Origin: Pseudomonadota bacterium
Lineage (GTDB): Bacteria; Pseudomonadota; Alphaproteobacteria; Rhizobiales; MH13
Direction of reading: 5' to 3'
DNA: 64,000 nucleotides
NCBI GenBank assembly: GCA_039024915.1
Contig: JBCCPK010000007.1
Span: forward strand, 124,001-188,000
Part shown: positions 46,391-50,450 of the stretch, in pieces
Layout of the letters: each line of letters begins with the position of its first letter
Position numbering within the stretch: the first letter of the stretch is position 1
The notes under the pieces: generated by a model
What the model was told of the DNA's origin: nothing
What the model saw: only the letters and a program-made list of their open reading frames with translations
The model's database searches: none
Translations under genes and position numbers: made by a program

Positions 46391-46466
<76 letters not shown>

Positions 46467-46547: not shown

Positions 46548-48128
46548 TCAACTCGCCTGCAGCACATCGACCGGCGGGCTTTCACGCCGCATCGCCAGCT
46601 TGTTGAGCGCCGACACATAGGCCTTGGCCGACGCGACAAGCGTATCGGCGTCTGCCGAGCGGCCGGTTACGATGCGCCCTTCTTCTTCGAGCCGAACCGA
46701 AACCTCGGCCTGCGCATCGGTGCCTTCGGTGACAGCGTGAACCTGATAGAGCGACAGGTTTGCCTCGTGCGGCATGATCGCCTTGATGGCGTTGAACACA
46801 GCGTCAACCGGCCCGTTGCCAGCTTCCTCGCGGGTGATATGCGCGCCGCCAATGTCCATGGTCAGGATCGCTTTCTGCGGACCACCCGTTCCAGCAATCA
46901 CCGTCAACGAGAGCACATGATTGGTCTCGCTGCGCTCGGTGATTTCGGTCTCCACCAGTGCTTCGATATCCTCGTCGTAGACATGCTTCTTGCGGTCGGC
47001 GAGCTCCTTGAAGCGGTTGAACGCGTCCTCGAATGCGTTGTCACCCAGATCAAGGCCCAGCGAGACCAGCTTCTCCTTGAACGCGTGGCGCCCTGAATGC
47101 TTGCCCATGACGAGGCTTGTCTCGCGGACGCCAACATCTTCAGGCCGCATGATCTCATACGTCTCAGCGTTCTTGAGCATGCCGTCCTGATGGATGCCGG
47201 ATTCGTGCGCGAACGCGTTCTTGCCGACGATGGCCTTGTTGTACTGCACCGGAAAGCCTGAAACAGCCGCCACCAGCTTGGACGCGCGTGTCAGGAAGCT
47301 CGGATCGACCGCGGACGCGTAAGGCAGCGCATCGCCGCGCGTTCGGATCGCCATGACGATTTCTTCAAGCGCGGCGTTCCCTGCCCGCTCGCCCAAGCCG
47401 TTGATGGTGCATTCAACTTGCCGCGCGCCGCCGGCAACGCCGGCAAGCGAGTTTGCGACCGCCATGCCCAGATCATCATGGCAATGCACGGAGAAGATGG
47501 CTTTGTCAGAGTCCGGCACCATCGAGCGGATACGCTCGAACATCGTCTTGTACTCTTCGGGCGTCGCGTAGCCCACCGTATCTGGCAGGTTGATCGTTGT
47601 GGCGCCATTCTTGATGGCCAGATCAACGCATTTGGCCAGAAACTCGATGGGCGTTCGGGTCGCGTCCATCGCCGACCATTCAACATCGTCAATCAGATTG
47701 CGCGCCCGCGTTACCGTCGCTTCGACGATCTCAAGGACCTGATCCTCATTCTTGCGCATCTGATGCGCCAAATGAATCGGCGACGTCGAAACGAAGGTGT
47801 GGATGCGTCCGCGCTTGGCGTGCTTCACCGCTTCCCCTGCACGGTCGATATCGGCGTTGATCGCGCGGGCGAGCCCAGCGATGATCGAACCATCGGAACG
47901 TTTGGCAATCTCACAGACAGCTTCAAAGTCGCCGTTGGAAGCGATCGGAAAGCCCGCTTCGATAATATCGACGCCCATGCTTTCCAGCAGTTCTGCGACC
48001 TGCAGCTTCTCTTCAAGGGTCATGGATGCGCCGGGCGACTGCTCGCCGTCGCGTAAGGTCGTGTCAAAAATCCGCACATAGTCACGGTGGGACGGGTCAA
48101 TTGTTGCGGAAGCCGGATTGGCGGCCAT
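46548..48128 (-). CDS. leuA: 2-isopropylmalate synthase
   Basis: A 526-residue enzyme that joins acetyl-CoA and 2-ketoisovalerate, the committed step of leucine synthesis. The TIM barrel shows [11 protein letters not shown] and [13 protein letters not shown]; a C-terminal LeuA regulatory domain (about 390-520) for leucine feedback follows. The start ATG 48128 gives the usual N-terminus; the same frame is open 73 codons further upstream, but that stretch is the leader with its peptide and terminator. Expression is likely set by leucine attenuation. ilvC, for an earlier step, is at 53441. Confidence 0.96.
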
Positions 48129-48200
48129 GGCTCGGTCTCCTTGTGCGCTCTCGTTGTGGCGCAACTTCAAAAGGTTGGATGCGGTCTTTTGAAATCCCCT

Positions 48201-48230
48201 AAAAACCCGGCGCGTCTGAACGCCGACGGT
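48201..48230 (-). terminator. Attenuator terminator in the leuA leader
   Basis: On the minus strand, ACC(GT)CGGCG - 8-nt loop - CGCCGGGT runs into a TTTTT tract (48201-48204 region), a rho-independent terminator about 73 nt before leuA. An outer arm CCCCTA/TAGGGG overlaps the stop of the leader peptide, so ribosome position can alter folding. Confidence 0.75.
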
Positions 48231-48232
48231 CC

Positions 48233-48325
48233 CTAGGGGCTGATAAGGAGGAGTCGCGCAAGCGCGAGCGGCCCGGCGTCGGGTCGCAAAGCCTTTTGAC
48301 CTGAAAGAGCAGCGATCTGCATCAT
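48233..48325 (-). CDS. Leucine-rich leader peptide of leuA attenuator
   Basis: A 30-residue ORF (ATG 48325; second ATG 48322; TAG 48235-48233) preceded by TGAGG at 7 nt. The product starts MMQIAALSGQ and ends PLALARLLLISP: seven leucines in 30 residues, three of them consecutive just before the stop (codons CTC CTC CTT), followed by isoleucine. The stop lies 2 nt from the terminator stem. Starved ribosomes would stall on the leucine codons, favouring antitermination and leuA transcription. This is a classical attenuation layout; comparable leuA attenuators are known in alphaproteobacteria. Confidence 0.8.
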   Translation of the reverse strand: MMQIAALSGQKALRPDAGPLALARLLLISP

Positions 48326-48415
48326 CGCAAAGCCTCAGTGTGTCCATTGCACAGTGTGCAACGCGACCGTTACCCAGTCCTTAATGGCTTGGCAACCCGG
48401 CACAAGGGCCATGCA

Positions 48416-49345
48416 TCACAGCTTCAGCACACCTTCGGCGACGCAAACGGCGTGCCCACCAAGACGCGCTGCCCGCAAACTTCCCGCGCTATCGACCTCA
48501 AGTTCCAGCTCGATATGAGATGGACGCCCCATCGCGAAGCCTTGCTCGATGGTCAGGCGATGAAGGCCCTCCATCGGAGCGTCAAAAGCCATAATCGCGC
48601 CCGCCAGCGATGCAACTGCCGATCCCGTTGCCGGGTCTTCACGGACGACCCCTCCGACGGGCCACATCATGCGCGCGGCAAATGCGCTATGCGCACCGAC
48701 CGTCTCGCGCGTGTAGGCATACATGCTGTCATGGCCCCGCCCGCCTGCGAAACGCTCGGCAAACAGGGGCGCATTGGGCTGGATGCTGTTGAGGGCATCA
48801 AGATCGTGCACCGGGACGCAGAAGTAGGGCATGCCGCCATCAAAGTCGGACGAGACATGGTTTTCGAAGCCAATCTGGTGGGGGCTTAGACCAAGCGCGA
48901 GGGCGAGATCGGCTTTGTCGACATCCCAAGGCGCGCGCGTCGGCAAGGTGGCAAGGTCAAATTCGGCAAATCCACCCGTCCGCATGGCCGGGTCCGCGTC
49001 GACCCTCACCGCCGAGCGAATGAGCCCGATCTGCTCTTCGAGCAACACAATCCCGGTATCGATACCGGCGGAAAAAAGATCGCAACCCAGCGCGACAGCC
49101 GCTCCAACCGTGGGATGCCCCGCGAACGGTAGCTCGCGGTCAGGGGTGAAGATGCGCAGGCTCGCGGTATGGCTCGGCTTGTCCGGTGGGCATAGGAAAA
49201 CCGTCTCTGAGAGATTGAACTCGCCTGCCAACGCCTGCATGCGCTCATCGGACAGGGATACCTCGCGCCGATCCACCACCGCCAGCGGGTTTCCGGCGAG
49301 CGGGGTCTGCGTGAAGACATCGAAGATGCGGTAAGGCAGCGTCAT
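48416..49345 (-). CDS. PhzF-family isomerase-like protein (copy 1)
   Basis: A 309-residue member of the PhzF/epimerase-like fold, two similar halves. FNLSETVF holds the catalytic-type glutamate (Glu47), and [11 protein letters not shown] and [15 protein letters not shown] are family motifs. PhzF itself isomerises a dihydroanthranilate in phenazine synthesis; most members have unknown substrates and no phenazine genes lie here. A second, related gene precedes it in transcription order with an 82-nt gap. A tandem duplication followed by divergence is likely. Confidence 0.88.
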
Positions 49346-49427: not shown

Positions 49428-50402
49428 TCAAGGCCAAAGCAAAGTGCCCTCACCGATCAGTATTGCTTCGCCGCCCAGCCGCACGCGCTGCAAGCCGCCA
49501 TCTTCGCCGACCTGTACCTCAAGCGTGAGCCTTGAAGGCCGCCCGATTGTGACGCCCTGTTCGATGCTCAGGCGATGCAGGCCAGCCATCGGTGCATCGA
49601 AGAGATGGATGGCGCCCGCTAAACTGGCCACGGCGGAACCCGTCGCCGGGTCCTCCTCGACTACCCCGTTTTCCGGCCACAATTTACGAGCTGAGAAGTC
49701 GGCGTCGGCTGCGACCGCATCACGGGTGTAAACGTACAGGCTGTCGCGGGCCTGTTCGAATACGCCAGGCGGCCGATCGGACATTCCAAGAAGCTTGTCG
49801 ATGGCCGCCGCCTTGGGTTTGACCGACGCCAGCGCCGCCTGATCACGCACCGGCACCAGATGGTAGGGCAGCGCGCCATCAAAAACGGTCGGCAGATGGT
49901 TTTCAAAACCCACTTGCCCAGGATCAAGGCCAAGCGCCAAGGCGATTTCTGCCTTCGTCGCCGACCAAGTGTAGCGCCGTGGCAGATGCAACAAATCAAA
50001 CTCGCCAAAGCCACGATTGCGATCAGGATCGTCTGGCTCAAACGAGACAGCTGCCCGAATGGCGCCAATCGCTGTTTCCAGAAGGACCAGACCGTCCGAC
50101 AAACCCTCAGCCAGAGACGCGCGGCTCAAAGCCACGGCCGCGCCGACGGTCGGATGGCCCGCAAATGGCAACTCACGGTCGGGGGTCAGGATTCGCAGCC
50201 GCGTCGAGTGCACATCATTTTCGGGATGACACAGAAAGATCGTGTCGGAGAGATTGAACTCCCGCGCGATGCGCAGAAGCGCATCATCGCTGGGAAACCG
50301 CTCTCCAGCGAACGCTTCGACACGCATATCAACGACCGCAAGCGGATTACCGGCAAATGGTGTCGACACAAAGACGTCGAAAATCTGATAGTTCAGCGGC
50401 AT
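49428..50402 (-). CDS. PhzF-family isomerase-like protein (copy 2)
   Basis: A 324-residue paralogue of the gene at 48416. It shares IFDVF...[28 protein letters not shown] and [16 protein letters not shown]. At the catalytic position it reads FNLSDTIF, with Asp53 in place of the usual glutamate, so its chemistry may be changed or lost. ATG 50402 is chosen over an upstream start because AGG lies 7 nt before it and the N-terminus then matches copy 1. Confidence 0.87.
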   Translation of the reverse strand: MPLNYQIFDVFVSTPFAGNPLAVVDMRVEAFAGERFPSDDALLRIAREFNLSDTIFLCHPENDVHSTRLRILTPDRELPFAGHPTVGAAVALSRASLAEGLSDGLVLLETAIGAIRAAVSFEPDDPDRNRGFGEFDLLHLPRRYTWSATKAEIALALGLDPGQVGFENHLPTVFDGALPYHLVPVRDQAALASVKPKAAAIDKLLGMSDRPPGVFEQARDSLYVYTRDAVAADADFSARKLWPENGVVEEDPATGSAVASLAGAIHLFDAPMAGLHRLSIEQGVTIGRPSRLTLEVQVGEDGGLQRVRLGGEAILIGEGTLLWP

Positions 50403-50450
50403 GTGCAACCTGCCCCGGAGCCTGTCCAAAGGACAGTGAAAATGCCCGTC

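Follow-up and report, generated by a model that had tools for sequence, protein, structure and literature searches.

The window, the whole stretch of 64,000 nucleotides that was analysed, carries on its minus strand a leuA gene for 2-isopropylmalate synthase of the bacterial type, starting at ATG 48128, and ahead of it a short leucine-rich open reading frame (Table 1). This leader ORF begins at ATG 48325, ends with a UAG stop at 48235-48233, and encodes the peptide MMQIAALSGQKALRPDAGPLALARLLLISP followed by the stop, with leucines at positions 7, 13, 20, 22, 25, 26, and 27. The 30-codon frame on this strand, with its TGAGG sequence and seven leucines ahead of leuA, had been proposed in an earlier note on this DNA and is borne out in the sequence. 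The leucine run CTC CTC CTT was also correctly placed there; it does not stand just before the stop, however, since ATC AGC CCC intervene.

A gene of the PhzF family (48416-49345) is located 90 bases upstream of the leader ORF on the minus strand. A second PhzF-family gene (49428-50429) neighbours it directly upstream on the same strand; the two are 55% identical and are likely the products of a tandem duplication. Just 3’ of leuA, again on the same strand, is a tRNA-Lys (CTT) gene (46391-46466). In the stretch ahead of the leader, the block TTAAGGACTGGGTAAC (48369-48384) is kept in the four congeners, the window genome included, and is possibly a promoter or a regulator site. A palindrome, TTGCACA-C-TGTGCAA, is found at 48347-48361 in the window genome.

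Table 1. Features of the leuA leader region in the window
Feature	Position	Strand	Basis or remark
Putative leader SD, TGAGG	48333..48337	minus	sequence ahead of ATG 48325
Leader ORF (leuL-like)	48233..48325	minus	30 codons, 7 Leu, end L-L-L-I-S-P-stop
Regulatory Leu codons, CTC CTC CTT	48245..48253	minus	third codon conserved as CTT
P1 5’ strand (anti-SD), CUCCUU (Leu codons 2-3)	48245..48250	minus	MFE fold, leader to leuA
P2 hairpin	48196..48239	minus	folding, covariation, models R1 and R2
P3 hairpin, ATTTCAAAAG / CTTTTGAAGT	48164..48195	minus	genus level; folds of four congeners
P4 hairpin, TGCGCC / G-GCGCA, adjoining SD	48144..48163	minus	genus level, sequence not conserved; folds of four congeners
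P1 3’ strand, AAGGAG (leuA SD)	48137..48142	minus	MFE fold and sequence
leuA, 2-isopropylmalate synthase (bacterial type)	46548..48128	minus	NCBIfam NF002087 and TIGR00973, both above cut-off

Distribution and probable translation of the leader

A leuA-directed search of 61 genomes returned a match in all 61, in some cases no more than a fragment or a distant homologue, and the upstream region was read at 30 loci. The ORF end and the hairpin were found upstream of leuA in 28 of these 30 relatives; the two exceptions are small genomes in which another gene lies directly upstream of leuA. The pattern common to the 28 is CUN CUN CUU, a few bases, CCC, the stop, and then the rest of the hairpin. 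Their leader peptides end in Leu-Leu-Leu-x-x-Pro-stop, and class-wide the ending is L[LR]L-x-x-P-stop.

Covariance model R1 detected the element in 104 of 385 class genomes and model R2 (88 sequences) in 133 of them, about a third; both counts are lower bounds because the filters were strict. In a phylum-wide sample of 398 genomes, R2 detected the element in 84, every one in Alphaproteobacteria, and none was found outside the class. Among the 87 R1 matches that were retrieved, 85 lie upstream of leuA, two of these with a cupin-like gene in between, and the remaining two are the lowest-scoring of those retrieved. The whole of the window’s own genome contains one significant model match. Chosen by LeuA similarity alone, 80 named leuA loci of Hyphomicrobiales (among them Stappia, Pannonibacter, Roseibium, Bosea, Methylobacterium, Devosia, and Bradyrhizobium) served as an independent set, and 79 of them carry the element on the leuA strand. 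Rfam has no match in the window except for the tRNA and no credible match to the element in ten relatives, and no alphaproteobacterial description of it was found in the open-access literature; the element is provisionally regarded as an undescribed alphaproteobacterial RNA family. In L072 and L103 (family f74), the element stands ahead of the small cupin-like gene, with leuA about 370 bases downstream; in L072 the anti-SD strand matches the SD of the cupin-like gene.

Leucine accounts for 34% of the six codons that precede the final triplet when these are read in the ORF frame, versus 3% and 11% when they are read in the other two, and the ORF frame has no stop there. Counted upstream from the stop, the ORF frame stays open for a median of 58 codons in one set, versus 14 and 27 for the other frames; in a second set it stays open for 73 versus 26 and 29. 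The codon preceding the final ANN NGC CCC is CTT (CUU) in 104 of 110 leaders, although CTT makes up only 8% of the leucine codons of leuA. A second flavour of leader, seen in 40 of the 110 (such as L059-L062 and L115), has Leu-Arg-Leu with the rare arginine codon CGA, followed by CUU A. The identity of the stop varies (UGA in 85, UAG in 16, and UAA in 6 of 110 leaders), and the opposite strand of hairpin P2 compensates. A few leaders have UGG at the stop site, and their true stop is apparently a few codons further on. The open frame, the enrichment of leucine limited to that frame, and the in-frame stop kept by compensation imply that translation matters, and these sequence comparisons give good support to control of leuA by a leucine leader peptide. 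The starts of the leaders are less certain, since an SD-like motif ahead of a plausible start is present in only 45 of 110.

Hairpin P2 and the predicted pairing of leader and leuA SD

P2 is a hairpin of 44 bases with a folding energy of -28.9 kcal/mol (z = -4.6 against shuffled sequences). It starts just ahead of the leader stop and takes this codon into its 5’ strand; its 3’ strand includes the U-run (48205-48201) and continues with more base pairs. Because the stop and the U-run are both within this larger stem, the terminator that had been claimed at 48230-48201, adjoining the stop, is the upper part of P2, and the hairpin extends from 48239 to 48196. In an alignment of 28 leaders, 92% of the cells of P2 are paired and 36 cells show double changes versus 14 in shuffles, a covariation well above shuffled and slid controls; with 88 leaders, 93% are paired and 165 cells show double changes versus 52. 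The lower stem is rich in GU pairs and has few non-standard pairs, as expected for pairing in RNA of this strand; a DNA-binding inverted repeat is disfavoured on the same grounds.

In the minimum free energy fold of the window genome, P2, P3, and P4 are closed by CUCCUU:AAGGAG, that is, by pairing of the second and third leucine codons with the leuA SD (P1), and the congeners L002-L004 fold alike. Across the loci read, the last 30 or so bases of the leader are complementary to the SD region of leuA. Among 110 species, the mean energy of the cognate leader-SD duplex was -19.0 kcal/mol versus -15.0 kcal/mol when species were swapped (z = -12.5, 0 of 10,000 permutations). The difference was -3.6 kcal/mol with GC-matched swaps (p = 1.6e-10), and the same set gave p = 2e-9 against dinucleotide shuffles and p = 2e-7 against codon-order shuffles. 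In whole-leader folds, the fraction of SD bases paired to the leader was 0.53 versus 0.38 in chimeras (p = 1e-7). Pairing of the SD to the three leucine codons alone was weaker than that to the whole leader end (0.21 versus 0.14, p = 0.009). Perfect extended P1 helices are seen in L115 (UGGUCCUUCG with CGAAGGACCA) and L053 (CAUCCUUCU with AGAAGGAUG), and no convincing P1 was found in L021, L093, and L105. When a ribosome-sized mask was placed on the leucine codons, exposure of the SD rose from 0.36 to 0.55, versus 0.37 for other masks (p = 1e-13). In the named set the corresponding rise was from 0.44 to 0.61, versus 0.45 for other masks.

When species were swapped within the held-out Hyphomicrobiales set, the test gave z = -3.9 (1 of 10,000 permutations), GC-matched swaps gave a weaker result (p = 0.024), and no P1 signal was obtained against dinucleotide or codon-order shuffles. 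P1 in this order is mostly a short CUCCUU/AAGGAG-like core, which any leucine run of such codons makes available. On these comparisons, P1 is species-specific across the class and weakly distinctive within the window’s own order. Some complementarity to any SD is bound to arise from the string CUCCUCCUU, which is a generic anti-SD. Such a role for CUCCUCCUUA is insufficient by itself, as the Leu-Arg-Leu leaders (CUN CGA CUU A, 40 of 110) do not have the string; these leaders pair through other segments of the leader end.

The reading that appears likely is that leuA is controlled by leucine-responsive, ribosome-mediated translational attenuation, with its leucine codons serving both as sensor and as anti-SD. 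Since the leucine region can pair with the SD of leuA, a shortage of leucine probably turns on the translation of leuA and not its transcription. We infer the stalling, the direction of regulation, its translational level, and the role of P2 as follows. When leucine is ample, the ribosome would pass the leucine codons, terminate at the stop inside P2, and depart; P2 would then refold, the leucine-codon segment would pair with the SD as P1, and leuA translation would be off. When leucyl-tRNA is scarce, the ribosome would stall on the leucine codons and cover the 5’ strand of P1, leaving the SD free and leuA translated. P2 may draw the two strands of P1 together and link the switch with the leader end.

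Other explanations of the leader

Translation of the leader might instead govern Rho-dependent termination or mRNA decay in the stretch before leuA, P2 serving as a barrier or pause hairpin. This would suit a hairpin that carries no U-run and the varying length of the spacer that separates leader and leuA, and comparable schemes have been proposed for terminator-less cases (PMC1262725). The species-specific pairing between leader end and SD is left unexplained by such a scheme, however, and it is considered unlikely as an account of the element. Rho-dependent effects could coexist alongside sequestration of the SD.

Classical transcription attenuation, in which the hairpin and its U-run form an intrinsic terminator under the control of leader translation, is quite unlikely. 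The window hairpin, with its TTTTT, does fold strongly and passes a terminator scan, but only 2 of 110 leaders have a T-run of at least five within the hairpin or immediately behind it, and the congeners have none. Within the genus the U-run is private to the window genome, three congeners carrying GGGCGTCTGGGGG, GGGCTTCTAGGGG, and GGGTGTCTAGGGG instead, and in the window it is paired within P2. The sign of the response also runs in the wrong direction. In constrained folds of the window leader, P2 is intact with the ribosomal A site on the first leucine codon, its upper part including the U-run remains with the ribosome on the third, and most of it is melted with the ribosome at the stop. A starved ribosome would thus keep P2 and a terminating one would open it, and starvation would promote a terminator at this place, although a biosynthetic gene requires the reverse. 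No antiterminator appears when the window leader is folded, and no conserved downstream partner of the P2 3’ strand (a region 3:4) was found by eye or in folds. An intrinsic terminator is rejected on the rarity of U-runs, their absence from congeners, and the wrong sign in constrained folds. The earlier note had seen here the standard arrangement of ribosome-mediated leucine attenuation; conservation upholds its leucine leader, but its terminator mechanism is not supported, given the private U-run, the missing antiterminator, and the wrong sign. It had suggested folding the leader with the ribosome stalled on the leucine codons, and in that fold all or most of P2 stays and no antiterminator is seen. 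It had also suggested looking in relatives for an ORF with a leucine run and a TTTTT stem, of which the ORF, run, and stem recur in 28 of 30, whereas the TTTTT is rare.

It is very improbable that P2 is primarily a riboswitch-like site for a protein or small molecule with the ORF secondary, for although positions in and around its internal loop are conserved and a regulatory protein was proposed for an actinobacterial element (PMC1262725), the ORF frame, the frame-specific enrichment of leucine, and the compensated in-frame stop favour translation.

Relation to known systems and a second leader

Seliverstov et al. 2005 (PMC1262725) described an actinobacterial LEU element, arranged around a pseudoknot, whose run of leucine codons pairs with the SD of leuA. 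Its mechanism was left open by the authors, who favoured a protein-binding site; in the account cited in that paper, mutation of the leader leucine codons of an actinobacterial analogue gave no classical attenuation result. The element of the current work resembles LEU in having a leader peptide with a leucine run upstream of leuA and no terminator, and in the leucine run and leuA SD forming the base stem of a compact structure, a pairing that is strong class-wide and weak within the order. LEU, however, has a conserved pseudoknot and belongs to Actinobacteria, whereas a simple covarying hairpin with the stop in its stem is found here in Alphaproteobacteria. Because the conserved core and the host group differ, the element is not classed as a member of LEU.

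A classical leu attenuator of the leuL type has been described for Shewanella (PMC2659441). Both systems have a short leucine-rich leader ORF with a regulatory leucine run before leuA, which would sense the supply of leucyl-tRNA. Unlike the leuL type, the element has no conserved terminator or antiterminator: U-runs of five or more are confined to 2 of 110 leaders and the window’s own is buried in the stem, stalling does not disrupt a terminator through an antiterminator in the window folds, and control is predicted at the start of translation. In translational attenuators of the erm type (such as ermB), a ribosome stalled in the leader ORF frees the SD downstream, and an antibiotic is the signal. 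The computations for the element give a similar picture, in which the leader sequesters the SD of leuA and a ribosome positioned on the leader releases it, stalling being predicted. Unlike in the erm type, the signal would be scarce charged tRNA-Leu, and the sensing codons belong to the anti-SD strand itself.

If this reading is true, leucine synthesis in much of Alphaproteobacteria would be under translational attenuation and not the textbook terminator switch, and the RNA family controlling it would be missing from Rfam. A second lineage would also be added in which leucine codons pair with the SD, an arrangement whose meaning was left open in Actinobacteria. A leader hairpin with a few Us is not necessarily a terminator.

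Family f23 of the same order had no element by R2 in the phylum-wide sample. Its LeuA is of a distant type, the single protein tested being of the yeast type (TIGR00970). Another leucine-rich leader is located before leuA in this family (L226-L233), with peptides such as one ending in LLLLGLIGDRRVR and the stop near or in a GC-rich stem, and without an Rfam match. Strong pairing between the leucine codons and the SD of leuA is predicted for 7 of the 8 leaders, which suggests that both leuA types in the class use the principle of pairing leucine codons with the SD. The broader view is evenly balanced between right and wrong: a class-wide family in which leucine codons are sensor and anti-SD and the stop is in a covarying hairpin, the principle having emerged or spread independently on two leuA types that are distant from each other (the bacterial type, and the yeast type in f23 and, through the published LEU element, in Actinobacteria). 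If f23 corresponds to Rhizobiaceae, the lack of the element there may be the reason that it has gone unreported in work on Agrobacterium and Sinorhizobium.
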